Below, one piece after another: positions 36,729-45,229 of a DNA stretch of 64,000 bases. Each line of letters opens with the position of its first letter. Position 1 is the stretch's first letter. The DNA is from Bradyrhizobium sp. AT1 (lineage in GTDB: Bacteria; Pseudomonadota; Alphaproteobacteria; Rhizobiales; Xanthobacteraceae). The notes beneath the pieces are model-generated. The model worked only from the letters and a program-made list of their open reading frames with translations, made no database searches and had not been told where the DNA came from. A program made the translations under genes and the position numbers. The stretch lies in assembly GCF_001590795.1 (NCBI RefSeq), contig NZ_JXDL01000001.1:3313720-3377719 (forward strand), written 5' to 3'.

Positions 36729-38354
36729 ATGAAATCAACAGCTGAGCGGCTGCTCTTTCCGACTGGTCGTGTTCATCAGTTCTTCGCAGTTGCAGTACTG
36801 GCCTGCGCTTTTTCCTTGGCGCTGACAGGCCGGCAGATCACCCAGGCGAATTGGGGATTGATCGACGACCATGAGGTCTTCACCTACCTAGGATCCGATC
36901 TGCGGCTGCCCTTTGGCGAGATCTGGGAAACGCTGATCACCAAGACCGAGGTCGGTCAGCTGCAGGGCCGTTTTCGCCCGACCTTCTACATCCTGAAGCT
37001 CACCGAAACCTCGTTGCTCGGCGCGGATGTCCATCTCTGGTACCTGGTTAACAGCGCCTGCTTCGCCATCTTCCTGGCTTCGATCTGGTGGGGACTTGTG
37101 CGCTTCATCGGCGTGTGGCTCAGCGGCGCCTTGACCGCGGCCATCGCAGTCCTGCCCATGTGGGCCGATATCTGGTCGCGGCTGGGGCCTTCGGAGATCT
37201 TCGGCACGGCCTGTCTCGGGCTGATGCTGTTCGCAGCCGACGCCATCCTGTTTGCCGAAGGGCGCAGGGTGAGGCTCTGCGCAGCCGTCGCGCTCACCCT
37301 GTTTGCCATTGTCCTCGCGGGTCTCAAGGAAACCTTCGTCCCGGTCGCCGCCGGCCTGCCGGCTTTTGTCCTTGGCTATGCGGTGATCACCCGCCGCCTG
37401 CCCCTGTCGCTTGTCGCTGCGCTTGGCCTGCTGCTCACGGCCTCTATTGTGGCCATCGGCGTCGTCGTCGTTCGGGAGATGCGCTCGGCCGGTGCGGACT
37501 ATTACGGCCGATCCGCCGGACCGATCGTCACGGTGCGCTACGCGCTGCTCGGCCTGATCGACGGCGTTGCGCGCACCTGGTGGGTATGGGTCCTGCCGAT
37601 CGCCGTCCTTCAATTGCTCAAGGTGATACCGGCCCGCAGCTGGAAGCAGCGGGTTCTGGAATCGGGGCCGGCGTTCGCCGCCTATGCGTTCCTGATCGCC
37701 ATGTATGCCGCCCAGTGCGGGCTCTATCGCATGCTGTTTCCGCACAACAACCGCTACGATTTTCCGGCGATGCTGCTGATCCCGCTCACGGCATGCATCC
37801 TGATTGCCGAGATCGTTTACAAATTGGGCCCTCGTTACCCGAAGCGGACCGTGGATCATGCGCTGTGCGCCGCCGCCTTCTTCGTGGTCTTCTTCCTGGT
37901 GACGAGCCATCTCGGCCAGCCCCCGGCGCTCGCCTCCGCCGTCAAACGGAATATCGAAACAAGCCAGGCGTTCTTCACCGACGTACAAAGGCTCGCCCAG
38001 CTCGCGAAGGCGGCGCCTGAACGTCCCATCATCATAGAGGCTGGAGGACCACTCGCTTTTGAGGGCATCCACTCGCTCCAGCAATTCCTGACGGCGCTCG
38101 GCGTGCAGAACACCATTTCGGTTCGCTACCATCGGAACGAACACGCACGCGGTCCCCTGCTGGAGAACCTTCAGCAGCAGGCGATGAAAATGGAGACGGC
38201 GCGGACCAGCACCCTCACGCCGCTCGCCGAGGCATGGGAGAAGCGTGCCGGCGGCTGCTTCGGCATCGGACTCTACACGCGTCCTGACCCTGCCTGCGAG
38301 GGCATTCAGATCATCAACGGTTTGGATCCGACAGCGATGCGCTCATCGCCCTGA
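36729..38354 (+). CDS. Polytopic membrane protein, GT-C glycosyltransferase-like
   Basis: A 541-residue protein with about 10-11 hydrophobic helices. After the first helix comes NWGLIDDHEVFTYLG, an acidic motif in the first outer loop, as in lipid-sugar-dependent GT-C enzymes. The C-terminal about 140 residues form a soluble, presumably periplasmic domain. No family name is safe. It is followed 12 nt later by a GtrB-like glycosyltransferase and then a second GT-C-like gene. The context suggests modification of a surface polysaccharide with a sugar flipped on undecaprenyl phosphate. Confidence 0.68.
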   Translation: MKSTAERLLFPTGRVHQFFAVAVLACAFSLALTGRQITQANWGLIDDHEVFTYLGSDLRLPFGEIWETLITKTEVGQLQGRFRPTFYILKLTETSLLGADVHLWYLVNSACFAIFLASIWWGLVRFIGVWLSGALTAAIAVLPMWADIWSRLGPSEIFGTACLGLMLFAADAILFAEGRRVRLCAAVALTLFAIVLAGLKETFVPVAAGLPAFVLGYAVITRRLPLSLVAALGLLLTASIVAIGVVVVREMRSAGADYYGRSAGPIVTVRYALLGLIDGVARTWWVWVLPIAVLQLLKVIPARSWKQRVLESGPAFAAYAFLIAMYAAQCGLYRMLFPHNNRYDFPAMLLIPLTACILIAEIVYKLGPRYPKRTVDHALCAAAFFVVFFLVTSHLGQPPALASAVKRNIETSQAFFTDVQRLAQLAKAAPERPIIIEAGGPLAFEGIHSLQQFLTALGVQNTISVRYHRNEHARGPLLENLQQQAMKMETARTSTLTPLAEAWEKRAGGCFGIGLYTRPDPACEGIQIINGLDPTAMRSSP

Positions 38355-38366
38355 GGCAGATTGTCC

Positions 38367-39449
38367 ATGACACACGCATCGCTCACGACCTCGTCTGACG
38401 GTATCAGCCCGCCGTTGCTGTCGATCGTGGTGCCCTGCTTCAACGAGCAAGATGGAATTGCTCATCTGGTCGAGCGCTGCCGCGCCAGCGCAGCGGCCGT
38501 CTTCGGCGATGACTACGAGATCATTCTGATCGACGACGGCTCGACCGACGCCACATGGGACACGATCCGCAACGAGATCGCCAAGTGCACCCGGGTTACG
38601 GGCATCCGGCTTTCGCGGAATTTCGGGCATCAGATCGCACTCACCGCAGGCCTCGCCGCCGTGAATGGCAGCGTGGTTCTGGTCATCGATGCCGATCTCC
38701 AGGACCCGCCGGAGCTGGTCGGCCCGATGCTGGAGCGCATGCGGGAGACCCGCGCCGATGTGGTCTACGGCCAAAGGCGTAGCCGAGCCGGCGAGGGCTG
38801 GTTCAAGAAGAAGTCCGCCAGCCTGTTCTATCGGCTGCTCGAGCGCACCACCGACGTCATCATCCCCAGGGATACCGGCGACTTCCGGCTGATGTCCCGC
38901 CGCGTTGCCGACCTCGTTGCGCGGATGCCGGAGCGGGACAGGTTCATCCGCGGCATGGTCGCTTCACTCGGTTTCAGGCAGGTGCCGTTCGTCTATGACC
39001 GGCAGGAACGCTTTGCAGGGCGGACCAAATACCCGCTCCGCAAGATGCTCGCCTTCGCGACCGACGCCTTTCTCGGCTATTCCATGGTGTTGCTGCGGTT
39101 CTCCTCGCTTGCGGCGCTCGGCATGTTCGTCGTCCTGCTGATCGTCGCCGGCTATTCGCTCTATTCCTGGATGTATCTGGAGGTCGTGCCGGGCTGGACC
39201 AGCCTGATGATCTCGACGATTCTGGCCTCGCTCTTCCAGCTCGTCTCGCTCAGCATCATCGGCGAATATGTCGGCAGGATCTATCTAAGCAGCAAGGAGA
39301 GGCCCCTGTTCGTCGTCGATGCGATCGAACGGCGCGGGCATGACGGCGAAGAGCCAGGCAAGTCCACCGCCTTCATTCCGCAAGCGCGCGCGCAGGGCAT
39401 TGGAGGCCCGCATGGCCTCACCGTCATCACGCAGGACAAGCTGCCGTGA
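38367..39449 (+). CDS. GtrB/DPM1-like glycosyltransferase family 2 protein
   Basis: A 360-residue enzyme. The GT-A domain has LSIVVPCFNEQDGIAHLVE, IILIDDGSTDATW, and IDADLQDPPELV with the metal-binding DxD. DTGDFRLMSRRVADLV is the acceptor-side motif. Two C-terminal helices (LRFSSLAALGMFVVLLIVAGYSL and MISTILASLFQLVSLSIIGEYVG) give the GtrB/ArnC layout. These enzymes load a sugar onto polyprenyl phosphate at the inner face of the membrane. The ATG at 38367 is preferred over TTG 38361. It overlaps the next gene by 4 nt. Confidence 0.9.
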   Translation: MTHASLTTSSDGISPPLLSIVVPCFNEQDGIAHLVERCRASAAAVFGDDYEIILIDDGSTDATWDTIRNEIAKCTRVTGIRLSRNFGHQIALTAGLAAVNGSVVLVIDADLQDPPELVGPMLERMRETRADVVYGQRRSRAGEGWFKKKSASLFYRLLERTTDVIIPRDTGDFRLMSRRVADLVARMPERDRFIRGMVASLGFRQVPFVYDRQERFAGRTKYPLRKMLAFATDAFLGYSMVLLRFSSLAALGMFVVLLIVAGYSLYSWMYLEVVPGWTSLMISTILASLFQLVSLSIIGEYVGRIYLSSKERPLFVVDAIERRGHDGEEPGKSTAFIPQARAQGIGGPHGLTVITQDKLP

Positions 39450-40606
39450 CCCGGTCTGCAAGCTCGCTGCGCCTCGGCAAGGCCATCGGTGTCCTGCTCT
39501 GCGCCGCGATCCTTGCCAGCCACCTGCTCTCGATGTCGCGATGGTCCGAGGACCGCGGCGTCAATGACGACATCTGCTACCTCAGGCAAGCGCATCTATT
39601 CCAGCGCTTTGGTGTCGCCGGCCTCGACACGAGCTTCGCGCGGGATGACGATGGCTATTTCGTCGCGAAGATGAAGAAGCTGCCGACCTGGGTCGATGGC
39701 CAGGGTCCGGTGTGCCACACGGCGATGCCCGCGACCGGCAAGCTGGTCCTGCAATACCCTCCGGGCACGGGCCTGGTGCTGGCGCTGTTCCCTTCCGGCC
39801 ATCAGGTCGTGCCGCTTTATGTCACCTGCACGCTGATCATTTTCCTGTTTGCCTGTGCTGCGATCTGGCTGTCGCGATCGAGAGCGCAACTGGCCATTGC
39901 GACCGTCTTTGGCTTTGTCGCCATCTACGTGATGATCAATCCGGTCAAGGCGAGTTACTCGATTGCGCCGACCATGGTGCTGTGCGCCGCAGCCGGATGG
40001 CTGACGGCCAGGTTGTTCGTCGAGGAACGGCAAAAGCCGAGGATGCTTCTCATTCTGGTCATCGGCCTTTTGATCGGCATCGCGGTCAATATGCGGGTGC
40101 CGAACTTTCTTCTGTCGGCCGGCTATTGCACCTATCTGCTGATCGCATTCCTGGCGACGACCAGGGCCACGCAATTTCTTGAGGGAGCGCTGTTCGCCGT
40201 CGCGCTCGTGATCGGCATGAGCCCGACCCTCGCGGCCAACGCCATCAACGCGGGCAGTCCCTTCTCGACCACCTACAGCGACGGCGATACGGTTCCTCCT
40301 TCATTCGACGGTGAGACCATTCGATCCTATCTCGGTGACCCGCAGTCGCTTTTCATTCTTCTTTCCGCTGCTTGGACAGTGTGGATCTGGCGTCGGGGTC
40401 AGAGCCGTCTTGCGCTTCTGCTCGGAAGCGGGCTTGCGATCAATTTGAGCTTCTTCATCACTCACCCGATCTTTACCCAGTACTATACGATCCCGATCTG
40501 TGCGCTGACCTTCTGGACGCTGTTGTTTGCGTCGCTGATGCCGCGCGACCCATCTACGCGACGAGCTGCCGCGCCGCCGCCGAGATCATCACCAGCCCGC
40601 CTGTGA
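39446..40606 (+). CDS. Second polytopic GT-C-like membrane protein
   Basis: A 386-residue protein with about 9 hydrophobic helices. The first outer loop again has an acidic pair (DRGVNDDICYLRQAHLFQRFG), like the membrane protein two genes upstream and GT-C transferases in general. Its GTG start overlaps the GtrB-like stop (GTGA). The last 17 residues (RDPSTRRAAAPPPRSSPARL region) are coded by sequence that also codes the C-terminus of the convergent TauE gene, so the natural end may have been lost by a rearrangement. The function is inferred from operon partners. Confidence 0.68.
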   Translation: MTRSASSLRLGKAIGVLLCAAILASHLLSMSRWSEDRGVNDDICYLRQAHLFQRFGVAGLDTSFARDDDGYFVAKMKKLPTWVDGQGPVCHTAMPATGKLVLQYPPGTGLVLALFPSGHQVVPLYVTCTLIIFLFACAAIWLSRSRAQLAIATVFGFVAIYVMINPVKASYSIAPTMVLCAAAGWLTARLFVEERQKPRMLLILVIGLLIGIAVNMRVPNFLLSAGYCTYLLIAFLATTRATQFLEGALFAVALVIGMSPTLAANAINAGSPFSTTYSDGDTVPPSFDGETIRSYLGDPQSLFILLSAAWTVWIWRRGQSRLALLLGSGLAINLSFFITHPIFTQYYTIPICALTFWTLLFASLMPRDPSTRRAAAPPPRSSPARL

Positions 40607-41324
40607 TCACCGCCACATCCAGGATCGCGGTGTGGATGTGAAGCGGCATCCGTTCGACGAAGGCTTTTGCCAGGAACGCGCCGGGGATCGCGATGGCTCC
40701 GATCAGCAGCGCGAAAGCGAGCACCTGCGCGGAGACGGCGCCGGCGAGGCCGAACACCGAGATCTTGATGAGGCCGGTGCCGAGCGAGATCATCGCATCG
40801 GTCGCGATGACCGCGGCCCCTTCCAAGCCGGCGGCCATCAGCAGCGACAGCAGGATCACGCCGGAGCCGGAGGTGCCGCCGACCAGCACGCCGTAGCCGA
40901 CCGAGCCCGCGGCAAGGCCGCCGTCGCCGATCCGCACCTGTCGGCGACGGAGCACGCGGCGCAGCGGCACGCTGAGGATCAGCATGGTGCCGATCACGAG
41001 GGCTGCACCGGCATTGGTGAGGCGCGTATAGCCGTAGGCGCCGAGCGCGGTCGTCAGCGCCGCGCAGGCCAGCACGATCAGCGCGCGGCGGCGGTCGGCA
41101 TACCTGATATAGGCGAGTGCACGGCTCGAATTGGTGAGCATCGCAGAGATCGCGATGATCGGCACCACCGGCTCGGCGCCGACCAGAGGCACCAGCACCA
41201 GCGGCATCAAGGCGCCGGTGCCGTAGCCGGCGAGACCACCGATGATCGAAGCGAACAACGCCATCAAAGCGACCAGCAGAAGCTGAAAGATCGAGATGTC
41301 GGCGAAGGCTGAGACGATGGTCAC
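40554..41324 (-). CDS. TauE/SafE-family membrane transporter
   Basis: A 256-residue protein with eight helices in two similar halves. The first half contains FASIIGGLAGYGTGALMPLVLVPLVG and the second AAGSVGYGVLVGGTSGSGVILLSLLM, matching the repeated GxxxGxGG motif of sulfite/sulfonate exporters. The substrate is not predictable. The start is GTG, overlapping the stop of a truncated cca copy (GTGA), which shows that it was once coupled to cca. Its 3' end overlaps the convergent glycosylation gene by 53 nt. Confidence 0.87.
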   Translation of the reverse strand: MTIVSAFADISIFQLLLVALMALFASIIGGLAGYGTGALMPLVLVPLVGAEPVVPIIAISAMLTNSSRALAYIRYADRRRALIVLACAALTTALGAYGYTRLTNAGAALVIGTMLILSVPLRRVLRRRQVRIGDGGLAAGSVGYGVLVGGTSGSGVILLSLLMAAGLEGAAVIATDAMISLGTGLIKISVFGLAGAVSAQVLAFALLIGAIAIPGAFLAKAFVERMPLHIHTAILDVAVITGGLVMISAAARQLVA

Positions 41325-41442
41325 GTTCTCTCGTCGCGGCTGATGCGGGCCGCAGCTTGATCGGCAATGGCAGCGAGTGCGGCTTCATCTAGAGGAAAAT
41401 CCGCTGCAAGCCAAGCGTCCTCTCCTCGGCCAATGTCAACAC
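41313..41442. repeat. Direct repeat copy 1: tauE start plus 3' end of cca
   Basis: This 130-nt segment matches 43691-43815. It starts GACGATGGTCACGTTCTCTCGTCGCGGC and runs through the last codons of cca. It differs by five single-base changes in the coding part, a few more further on, and a 5-nt insertion near 41420-41430. It bounds an inserted block that lies between it and copy 2. Confidence 0.9.
41321..41440 (-). pseudogene. Truncated, frameshifted 3' fragment of cca
   Basis: The last 33 codons before the stop at 41321 give EDAWLAADFPLDEAALAAI and continue to RDERT, the same protein sequence as the intact cca at 43699. The DNA differs at five third-codon positions, all silent (for example GCA for GCG, CTA for CTG). 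Six further codons (VLTLAE) are recognisable upstream, but in another frame because of a 5-nt insertion. Beyond that homology stops. It is a displaced gene end, not an expressed gene. Confidence 0.88.
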
Positions 41443-41559
41443 ATCTTGAGCGGCCGACGATCGCGGGCGGGTCTGCGCCTGCGATCGCTTCTTTTGCTTC
41501 GCGACGACGGGGAAGGACGCAAGGAGCCGGGCTCTGGTTCAATTGGAATCGAACAGGCT

Positions 41560-42408
41560 CTAGAAGCGATAGTTGAGACCGACGCGCGCGGTGTTGAAGT
41601 TAGCGCGGCCGACATTGGCGCTGATCGAGGCCGGCGTATCGCCGGGAACGAAGACCGCCAGGGCCCTTTCGGTGATTTTCGTTCCCGCAAGGCTTACATA
41701 GAGATATTCGGCCTTGAGGGTTATGCGCTCTCCGAGAGCGTATTCAAATCCACCGCCCACCGTCCAACCCGCGGTTACGTCGCGCGACACGCCGGAAAAG
41801 CAGGTAGCGCCGCTCGCGCATGTGAAGCCGCTGTTGTCCGGCAGTCCATTGGCCGTGAAGCCAACGGTGCTATTGTTGATATAACTCCCGCTGCGCGTGA
41901 CCTGCCCATAGGCCAGACCCCCGGTGACATAGGTCAACAGCGTGCTGGTCGGCAGGTAGCCGAGGCGGGCTCGCACCGTGCCGAACCAGTCGATCCGCTC
42001 GTCGAAGGGTGCCGAGTATGGACCTGGAATGGGCACCGGGGGCAAGGCGCCGGAACTGATGCCTGAGCCCTTGATGCCGGACCAGGCGAAATCGGCCTCG
42101 AGGCCGACAAGCCAGCCCGCGCCGAGCTGTCGGTTGTAGCCGAACTGCAATCCGCCGAGCGCACCCGACGTGTTGAACGACGTTGGTGGCGGGATGCCGT
42201 CAAAGGCAGACCAGAGCCGGGTAGCGTCATCGTTCGGGGAAAAACCCAGATCGCGATCGGCCCAGCCATAGCCGACGTTCACACCGGCGTAAAATCCGGT
42301 CCAGTCATAGATCGGGACGGGCTTTGCTTTCACCATCAAGTCGGCAGCCGATGCCGGCGACAGCATCATGGTTGAAACGGCAAATCCGGCCGCGATCAAT
42401 TTTCTCAT
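41560..42408 (-). CDS. Omp25/RopB-like outer membrane beta-barrel protein
   Basis: A 282-residue porin-like protein. A signal peptide (MRKLIAAGFAVSTMMLSPASAADL) is followed by YDWTGFYAGVNVGYGWADRDLGF, the typical first strand of rhizobial Omp25-type proteins. The last residues (NFNTARVGLNYRF) end in Phe, as outer membrane barrels do. A Cys pair in FTCASGATCFSGVS could form a loop disulfide. The start at 42408 is preferred; ATG 42417 is possible. It is divergent from an AraC regulator inside the cca-flanked insert, which suggests they moved together. Confidence 0.9.
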   Translation of the reverse strand: MRKLIAAGFAVSTMMLSPASAADLMVKAKPVPIYDWTGFYAGVNVGYGWADRDLGFSPNDDATRLWSAFDGIPPPTSFNTSGALGGLQFGYNRQLGAGWLVGLEADFAWSGIKGSGISSGALPPVPIPGPYSAPFDERIDWFGTVRARLGYLPTSTLLTYVTGGLAYGQVTRSGSYINNSTVGFTANGLPDNSGFTCASGATCFSGVSRDVTAGWTVGGGFEYALGERITLKAEYLYVSLAGTKITERALAVFVPGDTPASISANVGRANFNTARVGLNYRF

Positions 42409-42699
42409 GTTCGGCATTCCCAGCAAGTCCCTCGCTCGGAATCCCTACCGGGTCGTGCCCGGGCCGTCTTGTCCGCGAAGGTGCCGGAGTTGATCGAAAC
42501 GGTACGGCAGCACGATCGCCGGCGAATGTTGTTTCGGCGCAACGGTCGGCAGCCGCAGACTTGACCTGTCCGGCGCTCAACTTGACCTGAGATGCACGGC
42601 TGACCGCTTTTGCATCACCGCGGTGGGAAAGCGGGTGGATGCCTTTCGCGCGGCGATCATGATACGAGTGGAACCGGAGCGCGAGGATTTTGGACGGAC
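42409..42699. promoter_or_regulatory. Divergent promoter region of the omp25-like and araC genes
   Basis: This 291-nt intergenic region must carry both promoters. I see no unambiguous -35/-10 pair. The stretch TTGACCTGTCCGGCGCTCAACTTGACCTGAGATGCA (about 42562-42597) contains TTGACCTG twice 22 nt apart, plausible direct sites for an AraC-type regulator. Confidence 0.4.
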
Positions 42700-43683
42700 A
42701 TGCCGAAGATTGAATTTTCATCGGACCAGCTTCCATCACATCTGAATGACAGAGCCCGATTCCGCCTTTGGCACGACATATGGATGGAGCAGCTCGGCAA
42801 CGCGGACATGAAGCATGCCGAGGATACGCCGTTCTATACCGCGTCGAAGAATGTTCTGCTCGGCGAGTTGAGCGTCAGCCGGTTTGCCACGACGACCGGG
42901 CACTACGTGCGCACGCGCAAGCATGTGGCCAATGATCGCGACGATATTCTCGTCGGCTTTTATCGCAGCCCCCAACCGCAATTATGGACGGTGGGAAACC
43001 AGGGCGTCGAGCTGAAACAGGGAAGCGTGGTCGCCTTCAACGTCGCCCAACCGGTCTCGAGCTTCACAAACGGGCTGACGGCCTGGAATCTGGCGTCCAT
43101 ACCTCGTGCGCATATTCTGAAGCTCGTTCCGCATGCCGATAATCGTCCGGCAACGTTGCTCGACCCCGCCAATCCGGCGGTAAGACATCTCGATCGCGCC
43201 ATCGGTTTTCTCCTTGATGCCGACGAGGTCTGCGAAGACCAGGAGTTGACACGTCACGCGCAGGCCATGCTCGGGGATCTGATCGTGCTGGCGCTCGGCG
43301 CGCGCGGCGAGGTCGCGGAGATTGCTACGGAACGCGGCTTGCGCGCCGCGCGGCAGCGCGAGCTGATCGCGGTCATCGAGAAGCGTTTCGCCGAGCCGTC
43401 CCTGTCGATCACGACCATCGCGAACGCCCTCAACCTGTCGCGTCGCTATGTGAGCGACCTGCTGCTTGAAAGCGGCTCGACATTCTCCGAGCGTGTCCTT
43501 GAACTGCGCCTGCGCAAGGCAAGGGCGATGCTGTCGGACGTTCGCTACGACAGCACAAAGGTGAGTGACATCGCCTTCGCCTGCGGCTTCAATGAAGTGA
43601 CTTACTTCAATCGCCGCTTCCGCGCCCAGTTCGGCTGCTCACCGACGCAATATCGCATGGGAATGAACCAAGGCGACACATGA
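42700..43683 (+). CDS. AraC-family transcriptional regulator
   Basis: A 327-residue regulator. The N-terminal about 200 residues resemble the AraC-binding-like domain of the FeaR/NphR type (RFRLWHDIWMEQLGNAD, SRFATTTGHYVRTRKH). The C-terminal 100 residues hold the double helix-turn-helix: SLSITTIANALNLSRRYVSDLLLESGSTFSERV and KVSDIAFACGFNEVTYFNRRFRAQFGCSPTQYR. GGACGGAC lies upstream of the ATG. It is inside the cca-flanked insert and divergent from the outer membrane protein gene, its likely target. Confidence 0.92.
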   Translation: MPKIEFSSDQLPSHLNDRARFRLWHDIWMEQLGNADMKHAEDTPFYTASKNVLLGELSVSRFATTTGHYVRTRKHVANDRDDILVGFYRSPQPQLWTVGNQGVELKQGSVVAFNVAQPVSSFTNGLTAWNLASIPRAHILKLVPHADNRPATLLDPANPAVRHLDRAIGFLLDADEVCEDQELTRHAQAMLGDLIVLALGARGEVAEIATERGLRAARQRELIAVIEKRFAEPSLSITTIANALNLSRRYVSDLLLESGSTFSERVLELRLRKARAMLSDVRYDSTKVSDIAFACGFNEVTYFNRRFRAQFGCSPTQYRMGMNQGDT

Positions 43684-43690
43684 TCGGCGG

Positions 43691-43815
43691 GACGATGGTC
43701 ACGTTCTCTCGTCGCGGCTGATGCGGGCCGCAGCTTGATCGGCAATGGCAGCGAGCGCGGCCTCATCCAGGGGAAAATCCGCCGCAAGCCAAGCGTCCTC
43801 GGCGAGCGTCAACAC
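43691..43815. repeat. Direct repeat copy 2: 3' end of the intact cca gene
   Basis: This copy shares GACGATGGTCACGTTCTCTCGTCGCGGC and the following cca 3' coding sequence with 41313-41442. It also includes the first four tauE codons (GTG ACC ATC GTC) with no tauE gene after them, showing that this junction once led into tauE. Confidence 0.9.
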
Positions 43816-44955
43816 GTGCCCGAGCCCGGGTCCTTCCGCCATTCCGCGCGCGATGAAGTCGGCGGCCTTCAGCGGAAATTTCGGTGCAGTCCAGCGCTGC
43901 GGCAGCTCGGCGAGCGCGCGCCAGCGCATCGAGGCGACGTCGCCGCCGGCGCGCGCCCATCCCAGCAGCACACGATCGTGATAGCGCTCAGGCCCGAGCC
44001 GGTAGAGCAACCGCCGCGCATTGGCCTCGTCCTTGGTCGCGAAGCGCCACCAGCGGTGGCCCATCGAATCCAGCGCCTTGGTCTCGGCATTGGACAGCCG
44101 CAAGCGCGTGGCGACGCGCTTGGCATCTTCGGTCACGGCGACAGTCAGCGCCGCGAGGCGCCGCGTGCTGCTCGCGGCAAGGCCGAGTTCGCGCTCGATC
44201 GCGATCATCGTCGCCAGCGGTCCGGTGTAGACGACGCCGCCGACCAGTGCCTGCAGCAAGCCGCCGTCGGCCATGGCCAGCGCGGCCGCGGAGGCGCCCG
44301 ACGCCACCAAGAGCTTCAGCATCTCCATCCGCACCCGCTCCGCCGAGAGGCTGGCAAGGCCGGCGCGGCCGCGGATGCAGGCAAGCGTGCCGTCGCGGTC
44401 GGGATCGCCCGCGCCGAAGGCAGCATGGATGCGGAAGAAGCGCAGGATGCGCAAATAGTCCTCGGCGATGCGCTGGTCGGGATCGCCGATGAAGCGCACG
44501 CGGCGCGCTTTGGCATCCGCGATGCCGCCGACATGGTCGTAGACGACGCCCCTCGCATCGACCGACAGGCCGTTCATGGTGAAGTCGCGCCGCTCGGCGT
44601 CCTTCACCCAGTCGCGGCCAAACGCGACCTTGGCCTTGCGGCCGAAAGTCTCGGTGTCCTCGCGCAGCGTCGTGACTTCGTAGGGGTGGCTGTCGATCAC
44701 CAGCGTGACGGTGCCGTGCTCGATGCCGGTCGGCACGCTCTTGATGCCGGCGGCCCTGGCGCGCCGTATCACCTCCTCCGGCCGGGCCGTGGTCGCGATA
44801 TCGATGTCGCCGGGCAGAAGACCGAGCAGCGCGTTGCGCACCGCGCCGCCGACCACCCGCGCCTCCTCGCCGTCGGCATTGAGCAATTGCAGGACGCGCG
44901 CGGTCCCGCCCGAGATCAGCCAGGGCGCATCGGCGAGTATTGGCTCTGCGCTCAT
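43699..44955 (-). CDS. cca: CCA tRNA nucleotidyltransferase/poly(A) polymerase family protein
   Basis: A 418-residue class II nucleotidyltransferase. ARVVGGAVRNALLGLLPGDIDIATTA holds the GG motif and the two metal-binding aspartates. ERRDFTMNGLSVDA and GDPDQRIAEDYLRILRFFRIHAAFG are the nucleotide-selecting motifs. A helical tail follows. It probably adds or repairs tRNA 3'-CCA. The start at 44955 leaves an 11-nt gap to the DUF6111 gene. Its 3' end is duplicated 2.4 kb away next to tauE, so the element appears to have inserted at the end of this gene while leaving it intact. Confidence 0.93.
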   Translation of the reverse strand: MSAEPILADAPWLISGGTARVLQLLNADGEEARVVGGAVRNALLGLLPGDIDIATTARPEEVIRRARAAGIKSVPTGIEHGTVTLVIDSHPYEVTTLREDTETFGRKAKVAFGRDWVKDAERRDFTMNGLSVDARGVVYDHVGGIADAKARRVRFIGDPDQRIAEDYLRILRFFRIHAAFGAGDPDRDGTLACIRGRAGLASLSAERVRMEMLKLLVASGASAAALAMADGGLLQALVGGVVYTGPLATMIAIERELGLAASSTRRLAALTVAVTEDAKRVATRLRLSNAETKALDSMGHRWWRFATKDEANARRLLYRLGPERYHDRVLLGWARAGGDVASMRWRALAELPQRWTAPKFPLKAADFIARGMAEGPGLGHVLTLAEDAWLAADFPLDEAALAAIADQAAARISRDERT

Positions 44956-44965
44956 CGTGCTGTCC

Positions 44966-45229
44966 CTATTTTTCCACGCCCGGCACCAGCCTGCCGTTCT
45001 CGATATGGGCGGGAACGTAGGTCGAATCCGGTGCGGCGCCGGAGAAGTGCGCAAAGCCGATCAACCCCGCGATGACAAGCACGAGCGCCGCCAGAACGAG
45101 GCGCGCCACGACGGTGACCGGCCAGGACGAGCGCGCGAACAGGCCGGAGCGCGTGGCGGCCAGGAACAGCGCATAGACGGCAAAGGGAATGAGGAAGATT
45201 CCGATCTCGGTCAGAACCGGCCGGATCAT
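44966..45229 (-). CDS. DUF6111 small membrane protein
   Basis: An 87-residue protein with two membrane helices (about 6-25 IGIFLIPFAVYALFLAATR and 40-62 VVARLVLAALVLVIAGLIGFAHF), then a short periplasmic-side tail ending YVPAHIENGRLVPGVEK. This matches the DUF6111 pattern found next to cca and NUDIX genes in Bradyrhizobium and relatives. Its start overlaps the NUDIX stop by 4 nt (ATGA). The function is unknown. Confidence 0.83.
   Translation of the reverse strand: MIRPVLTEIGIFLIPFAVYALFLAATRSGLFARSSWPVTVVARLVLAALVLVIAGLIGFAHFSGAAPDSTYVPAHIENGRLVPGVEK

Follow-up and report, generated by a model that had tools for sequence, protein, structure and literature searches.

The cca/tauE junction of Bradyrhizobium sp. 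AT1 raises the question of how an outer-membrane protein gene and a regulator came to lie between two overlapping genes that are both intact. In the coordinates of the window, the 64,000-nucleotide stretch of DNA that was analysed, the locus is made up as follows.

40554..41324, minus strand: tauE-type permease (TauE/SafE family), intact; Pfam TauE, 1.1e-12
41313..41442, minus strand: left (tauE-side) junction copy, a cca 3′-end pseudogene fragment plus the tauE start
41560..42417, minus strand: omp, outer-membrane beta-barrel gene (OMP beta-barrel), reading towards tauE; Pfam OMP_b-brl, 4.1e-14
42700..43683, plus strand: araC, AraC-family regulator; Pfam HTH_18, 2.1e-19
43691..43815, minus strand: right (cca-side) junction copy, comprising the end of cca, the GTGA overlap and tauE codons 1–4
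43699..44955, minus strand: cca, CCA-adding tRNA nucleotidyltransferase / polyA polymerase family, intact; Pfam PolyA_pol, 5.4e-27

The best NCBIfam model for cca is CCA tRNA nucleotidyltransferase, at a score under the model cut-off, and araC is convergent with cca and divergent from omp. A first-pass annotation had described a direct repeat of the cca end and the tauE start on either side of the gene pair, and this repeat is real: positions 41313–41422 and 43691–43800 are 95% identical over 110 nt without gaps, at a start-to-start spacing of 2378, with weaker similarity extending to ∼41442 and 43815. As all other direct repeats found by a repeat scan of positions 40500–45000 are at most 36 nt long and at most 88% identical, the junction repeat is far beyond chance. 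It contains the 3′ end of cca, the GTGA in which the cca stop and the tauE start overlap, and tauE codons 1–4. The right copy provides the end of cca, whose last codons fall within it, and the left copy provides the tauE start and its upstream region, leaving both overlapping genes intact; the cca frame is broken in the left copy, where an extra 5 nt read as a GAGGA tandem duplication.

Within the ungapped 110 nt both copies encode the same 33 residues and their five differences are all silent, as had been stated earlier; when the comparison is carried across the gap 7 codons are changed (8 bases), again all 7 silently. The absence of replacements had been taken as a sign that one copy was transferred from another strain, an argument weakened by comparison with the nine other genomes that carry both copies, where the 80 codons changed between copies comprise 46 silent and 34 replacement changes. 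Among the right-copy cca ends of 14 genomes, likewise, 441 codon differences are replacements and 740 are silent. The silent-only pattern is peculiar to AT1, and it was rejected as proof of donor origin, not being general among carriers.

Comparison of the junction in relatives bears out the presence of empty sites, as it is unbroken in at least 178 of 265 genomes of the genus (126 from a first listing and 52 from a second; the rest are 23 split or incomplete junctions, all examined, 2 partial and 62 unclassified). The omp and araC insert is found in 11 of the 265 genomes and in every one at the cca/tauE junction, a carrier being defined by at least the araC end of the insert at ≥85% DNA identity and the best two candidate places being scored per genome. 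DNA identity to the AT1 insert is 85–92% in the 10 other carriers, and both junction copies are kept in 10 of the 11. A recent duplication private to AT1 is ruled out, as these 10 genomes carry the same structure. The N-terminal part of omp is common to the carriers and its barrel type to 3 of the 10 others; in the other 7 the DNA match ends at ∼42262 and the OMP protein is 35–39% identical. In the two genomes with partial matches (G028 and G138) the tauE beside cca is mostly or wholly lost.

The ends of the repeat are similar from carrier to carrier. The left copy starts at J476–491 in all 10 carriers that retain it, and the right copy ends at J667–671, i.e. ∼70–75 nt into tauE, in 7 of 11, giving a repeat of ∼195 nt (J476–671) in other carriers; the right copy of AT1 is shorter and ends at J608. 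Related spacers lie between the right copy and araC in the carriers compared, and across the loci compared this spacer is matched only within carriers, on which ground tauE-flank DNA was rejected as its identity. The similarity of the repeat ends suggests that the omp–araC structure probably arose once, from a single founding event.

On a 60-genome rpoB tree the carriers are interspersed with genomes whose site is empty. Among the 11 carriers, Mantel tests relate neither araC to rpoB (r = 0.16, p = 0.24) nor araC to cca (r = 0.10, p = 0.28), while cca and tauE both follow rpoB (r = 0.63, p = 0.003 and r = 0.60, p = 0.001, respectively), and this difference suggests that the omp–araC cassette has probably moved between Bradyrhizobium species. 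Mean distances are 0.085 for araC and 0.117 for cca, and in the closest pair (G241 and G243) the araC distance is 0.03 compared to 0.11 for cca, although slower evolution of araC could likewise reduce its distances. Tested on araC, the topologies of cca, tauE and rpoB are all rejected (ΔlnL 199–212, AU p ≤ 2.4e-4). Both the Mantel and the AU results thus describe a cargo phylogeny independent of the genome, with the caveat that cca, tauE and rpoB also reject each other's trees (ΔlnL 26–93), so incongruence is general in the genus and what sets araC apart is the degree of its conflict together with its uncorrelated distances (n = 11). Divergence falls from cca into araC in six carriers of omp type A and not in the three of type B that were compared, and the divergence profile has no clear edge on the tauE side.

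We lean towards the reading that omp and araC form an old, recombinase-free cassette held between the junction copies, founded once and later moved between species by homologous recombination. The most likely route would be uptake as chromosomal DNA, with the junction repeats and the flanking genes acting as homology arms; recombination between the repeats would remove the cassette cleanly and restore an empty site, and the two copies of a genome would be kept alike by gene conversion or by crossovers within the repeat. As for the founding event, the choice lies between an insertion that produced a long target duplication and a tandem duplication that began within cca and was followed by complementary loss. 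Repeats this long and this identical are short for efficient RecA exchange.

A similar picture would result from a single ancient insertion that was inherited vertically and lost many times through its repeats, the tree conflict reflecting ordinary within-gene recombination and nothing more. The similar repeat ends, the clean loss that direct repeats favour and the mutual conflict of all four tested genes are in keeping with such a history, as is the behaviour of the junction copies themselves: over the carriers, outer-half distances are 0.125 between left copies, 0.104 between a left copy and its own right copy and 0.097 between right copies, i.e. the left copies form no group of their own and do not stand apart from the cca end of the genome they belong to. 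Since they are not sorted by cassette, we put less weight on cassette movement and more on vertical descent than we otherwise would. However, vertical descent requires that the cassette was lost along many branches of the rpoB tree and leaves araC distances that, unlike those of cca and tauE, do not correlate with rpoB (nor with cca), and we consider it unlikely.

The two copies within one genome are more alike than random pairs (p = 0.0006 for the inner half, p = 0.003 for the outer half). In AT1 this likeness is uneven, as the left and right copies differ at 7 of 57 positions on the cargo side (J484–540) and at only 1 of 60 on the tauE side. Judged from these sequences, the left copy is native to the clade of AT1 in its tauE-side part but not in its cargo-side part, a contrast that would fit a donor-derived outer part. 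The earlier proposal that one copy came from a related strain is upheld to this extent, but no donor was identified among the carriers and empty sites compared. The sequence nearest the outer stretch is indeed from another genome, but one with an empty site (G018, 4 of 57), and the left copy of the carrier G241 (5 of 57) is tied with several others; a named donor was rejected on these grounds, and over all carriers the left copies are no closer to each other than to their own right copies. As a whole, the AT1 left copy is closest to another empty genome (G093, 7 of 117) and about as close to its own right copy (8 of 117). Two single bases of the AT1 left copy are suggestive at most: T at J493 (shared by only 1 of 13 other left copies, none of 14 right copies and 1 of 56 empty sites) and G at J495 (2 of 13, none of 14 and 10 of 56, respectively).

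The omp–araC pair is not the only cargo between duplicated cca/tauE junctions in the genus, as cytochrome c and LysR cargoes also occur there, and these bear on how the structure was founded. In G071 and G008 there is one tauE, and the cytochrome c cargo follows it as a native neighbour in the same orientation. In G214, cca and tauE nt 1–57 are fused to position 766 of tauE, which is followed by its native downstream DNA, leaving a tauE stub made by a clean internal deletion; after the fusion come most of the G071 genes in the same order, with one gene in addition, and then a second cca end and a whole tauE. Tandem duplication with complementary loss fits this cargo well and is well supported by the comparison. 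The view of the insert as an arrival is partly sustained: the omp–araC pair does not share the history of cca, tauE or rpoB, although the cytochrome c genes found at this junction have the look of a rearranged neighbour.

If the omp–araC structure was founded in the same manner, a duplication that began within cca would have doubled a cca-tauE-araC-omp segment; all but ∼75 nt of the first tauE, together with the second araC-omp, would then have been lost, and the insert would be a former downstream neighbour. This concerns the founding only and is compatible with later movement between species. Besides the cytochrome c case, it draws on the LysR cargo of G169, where 32 nt beside cca match tauE nt 143–174 (an interior relic), and it is consistent with the tauE stub beside araC, which in the omp–araC carriers is a 5′ stub only. 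Against it, none of the 11 carriers among the 265 genomes has araC downstream of tauE (best two candidate places scored per genome), the 1.2–9.8 kb examined past tauE in each of the 11 contain no remnant of araC or omp, so that such relics had to be dropped as proof of tandem duplication, and the araC-side spacer matches none of the compared loci outside the carriers. We therefore hold duplication as the origin of the omp–araC structure to be possible but doubtful.

The geometry of the locus had been ascribed to an element that uses a gene end as its target and rebuilds it, and a restored gene end, direct repeats and empty sites in relatives are what a site-specific element attached at the cca 3′ end would leave. 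However, no recombinase, integrase or transposase was found by Pfam among the 10 cargo proteins scanned (2 of the 10 had no Pfam match), and the integrase model was rejected for want of a recombinase among these proteins. The repeat is also not confined to a core reaching the gene end: ancestrally ∼195 nt long, it covers both genes, including ∼75 nt of tauE, and most repeats continue past the gene end into tauE from start points that vary with the cargo (J271, J459, J476–491 and J504). The insert recurs in ten other genomes at this very position and with similar ends, and one sister cargo, the cytochrome c genes native to G071 and G008, is better accounted for by duplication and deletion. Transport on a plasmid or phage was rejected as well, since a search of 50,697 phage records gave no match and one of 72,556 plasmid records gave matches in only 3, none of them longer than 97 bases. 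A site-specific element is thus highly improbable.

In the reading we favour, that of a cassette moving by homologous recombination, this one locus in several species would illustrate that genes without a mobility enzyme can end up within an overlapping gene pair with neither partner harmed, and probably be swapped and lost. Minimal mobile elements of Neisseria are alternative cassettes that lie between two conserved genes and spread by flank recombination; to our knowledge they have no duplicated junction, so the cassette between conserved genes is alike and the duplicated junction is found only here. A literature search, with subscription journals mostly outside its scope, returned no paper on the cca/tauE junction. 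Insertions with long target duplication in Helicobacter pylori, frequently with restriction-modification genes (Nobusato et al. 2000, as cited in PMC1643837 and PMC3031569), resemble this locus, going by those accounts, in having an insert between long direct repeats of host DNA and an empty site in a related genome. They differ from it in that the cargo here is omp–araC, cytochrome c or LysR at one site in several species, and in that the repeats of one cargo here are better explained by neighbour-gene duplication and loss. Target duplication is not the only possible source of long direct repeats on either side of an insert, and duplication with complementary deletion could explain other reported cases. 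The hotspots of a 2017 study (PMC5635113), as that article describes them, are similar in their variable content beside conserved genes, the lack of an integrase and the proposed flank-driven exchange; the unit here has a duplicated flank on both sides, in an overlapping gene pair.

More speculatively, the duplicated overlapping junction could serve as a reusable, enzyme-free landing pad, whose trapped cargo spares both neighbours, recombines into the single junctions of relatives and can be stacked, as in G208, where a third, decayed junction copy lies between two cargoes. We think this distinctly unlikely; if true, overlapping gene pairs would be sites where cassettes born by duplication persist and are mobile by homologous recombination alone. 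For the host, the cassette means that tauE is preceded by an outer-membrane gene with a variable barrel and a neighbouring AraC regulator, and tauE expression may be altered. Finally, two MAGs from outside the genus, one of Mesorhizobium (AraC 64–65%, OMP 52%) and one of Afipia (AraC 66%, OMP 37%), also have divergent omp–araC pairs, at unrelated places.

In relatives of Bradyrhizobium sp. AT1, cca and tauE overlap by GTGA; in the window, a piece of the chromosome, a two-gene insert parts them and the junction is doubled, with the features arranged as follows.

40554-41324, minus strand: tauE, with its start and upstream region in the left junction copy
41313-41422, beside tauE: left junction copy, direct repeat of 110 nt, 95% identity
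41560-42417, minus strand: outer-membrane barrel gene (omp), insert gene between cca and tauE
42700-43683, plus strand: araC, insert gene between cca and tauE
43691-43800, beside cca: right junction copy, direct repeat of 110 nt, 95% identity
43699-44955, minus strand: cca, with its last codons in the right junction copy

Beyond 110 nt the match between the repeats weakens, and the left copy has a 5-nt frameshifting tandem duplication. As this copy is partial and frameshifted, the cca end within it is a pseudogene fragment, although the same copy still bears the start of tauE and its upstream region. Window 36729-40606, downstream of tauE, encodes a family-2 glycosyltransferase plus two proteins with no Pfam match. 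Beyond tauE the 41 genomes mapped differ widely in gene content, and for two of these three proteins homologues were found among them in G029 only.

The first-pass annotation had regarded the gene pair as an insertion that should leave empty sites in relatives, and such sites are common: at least 178 of 265 Bradyrhizobium genomes have an unbroken cca/tauE junction with no insert there, 126 of them among the matches listed for an empty junction searched against the set and a further 52 among those listed for an empty junction from another clade. This tally leaves out 62 of the 265 genomes, which fell below the listing threshold or had no match. The junction was split or incomplete in 23 genomes with the first query, all of which were examined, and G028 and G138, partial with the second, have lost most or all of the tauE next to cca. 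With the best two candidate places scored per genome, the insert is found in 11 of the 265 genomes, this one included, and in all ten other carriers it occupies the same junction. Both junction copies are kept in ten of the 11 carriers; G276 has lost the tauE-side copy together with the first 42 codons of tauE.

The ends of the copies are also similar. Numbered along the empty junction of genome G005 (J positions; tauE start J597, cca stop J598-600), the left copy starts at J476-491 in all ten carriers having one, and the right copy ends at J667-671 in seven of 11, being shorter in the other four (J608 here). The spacer from the tauE stub to the araC stop is short and recognisably related in several carriers. 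We infer an ancestral doubled junction of ∼195 nt that would have arisen once.

The cassette has probably passed from one species to another. The carriers are dispersed among empty genomes in an rpoB tree of 60 genomes. Across the 11 carriers, pairwise araC distances are uncorrelated with those of rpoB (r = 0.16, p = 0.24) and cca (r = 0.10, p = 0.28), whilst cca and tauE distances track rpoB (r = 0.63 and 0.60, p ≤ 0.003), and mean divergence is lower for araC (0.085) than for cca (0.117). The cca, tauE and rpoB trees are rejected by araC by 199-212 log units. Speaking against movement, these three genes reject one another's trees too, by 26-93 log units; recombination is thus frequent at every one of these loci, and the cassette stands out by degree. 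Sliding windows show a drop in divergence on passing from cca to araC for the six omp type A carriers, none for the three omp type B carriers compared, and no clear edge toward tauE. Divergent omp-araC pairs are present at unrelated loci in MAGs of Mesorhizobium (L228 6779-8966; AraC 64-65%, OMP 52%) and Afipia (L230 6941-8970; AraC 66%, OMP 37%), and the pairing therefore probably predates this site. In the Afipia locus araC is spread over two overlapping ORFs.

The first ∼50 codons of omp (window 42262-42417) are common to the carriers but the barrel (41560-42262) differs: this genome (G000), G276, G104 and G241 have one type, and the remaining seven a second type at 35-39% identity. Six genomes with the second type show a mid-gene mosaic of blocks ∼4% and ∼20% diverged. 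The gene thus looks chimeric within the carrier set, a pattern resembling diversifying recombination of a surface protein.

In this genome the left and right cca ends differ at seven codons, all silent; the purely silent differences had been taken as a sign that one copy probably came from a related strain whose cca was under selection. However, left and right copies in the nine other two-copy carriers differ by 46 silent and 34 replacement codons, and comparisons among the right copies of 14 genomes and among the left copies of ten carriers give 740 silent and 441 replacement codons, and 260 and 286, respectively. These replacement counts indicate that left copies decay and that the end of cca varies in its own right, so purely silent differences are not diagnostic here. 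The related proposal that one copy came with the insert is partly supported. The inner, tauE-side part of the left copy (J541-600) differs from the right copy at 1 of 60 positions, both resembling close relatives, whereas the outer, cargo-side part (J484-540) differs at 7 of 57, which fits an outer part brought by the cassette and joined to native sequence within the repeat. No donor stands out, however: the outer part has its closest match in G018, an empty genome (4/57), the G241 left copy being one of several at 5/57, and the left copy taken whole is closest to another empty genome, G093 (7/117), its own right copy standing at 8/117. Across carriers the outer halves of left copies do not group together (left-left 0.125, left-own right 0.104), and the two copies within a genome resemble each other more than copies paired at random do (p = 0.0006 for the inner half, p = 0.003 for the outer).

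Other cargoes also lie between two junction copies, namely cytochrome c genes in G269 and G214 and LysR/ydhR/ABM genes in G169, where 32 nt beside cca match the tauE interior. G114 retains two copies ∼63-84 nt apart with a 67-nt relic of the LysR/ydhR/ABM cargo; the LysR cargo of G108 comes with no tauE match. In G208 (L220 5600-10120) two successive cargoes are accompanied by three junction copies, in the order cytochrome c cargo, decayed third copy (J291-350, J538-606), araC-omp and tauE. The source of the cytochrome c cargo can be seen in G071 and G008, which have a single tauE with these genes downstream of it. In G214, cca with tauE nt 1-57 runs directly into the last tauE bases and the native DNA downstream of them; most of these genes come next, their order unchanged but with one extra gene, and then a second cca end and an intact tauE. 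This layout is what a tandem duplication would leave after loss of the first tauE and the second cargo.

A junction copy on each side keeps cca and tauE whole, which would explain why cargo is tolerated where these genes overlap. The repeats and flanking genes provide homology through which the cassette could be exchanged with the junction of a relative or be lost cleanly. No recombinase was found among ten cargo proteins scanned, no phage record matched the cassette, and just three plasmid records did, over short stretches. The founding event of the omp-araC structure may have been a tandem duplication followed by loss, or else an insertion that duplicated a long target; araC was found beyond tauE in no carrier (11 of 265 genomes, best two candidate places each), nor were araC or omp relics seen there in the carrier stretches examined. 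We class the structure with an already known kind, though at least one of the other cargoes at this junction has the look of a rearrangement and not of an insertion.

In five further genomes tauE has been reduced by internal deletions, both of its ends being left next to cca, and there is no second copy (G072, locus L106; G122, L107; G285, L110; G153, L111; G009, L114).
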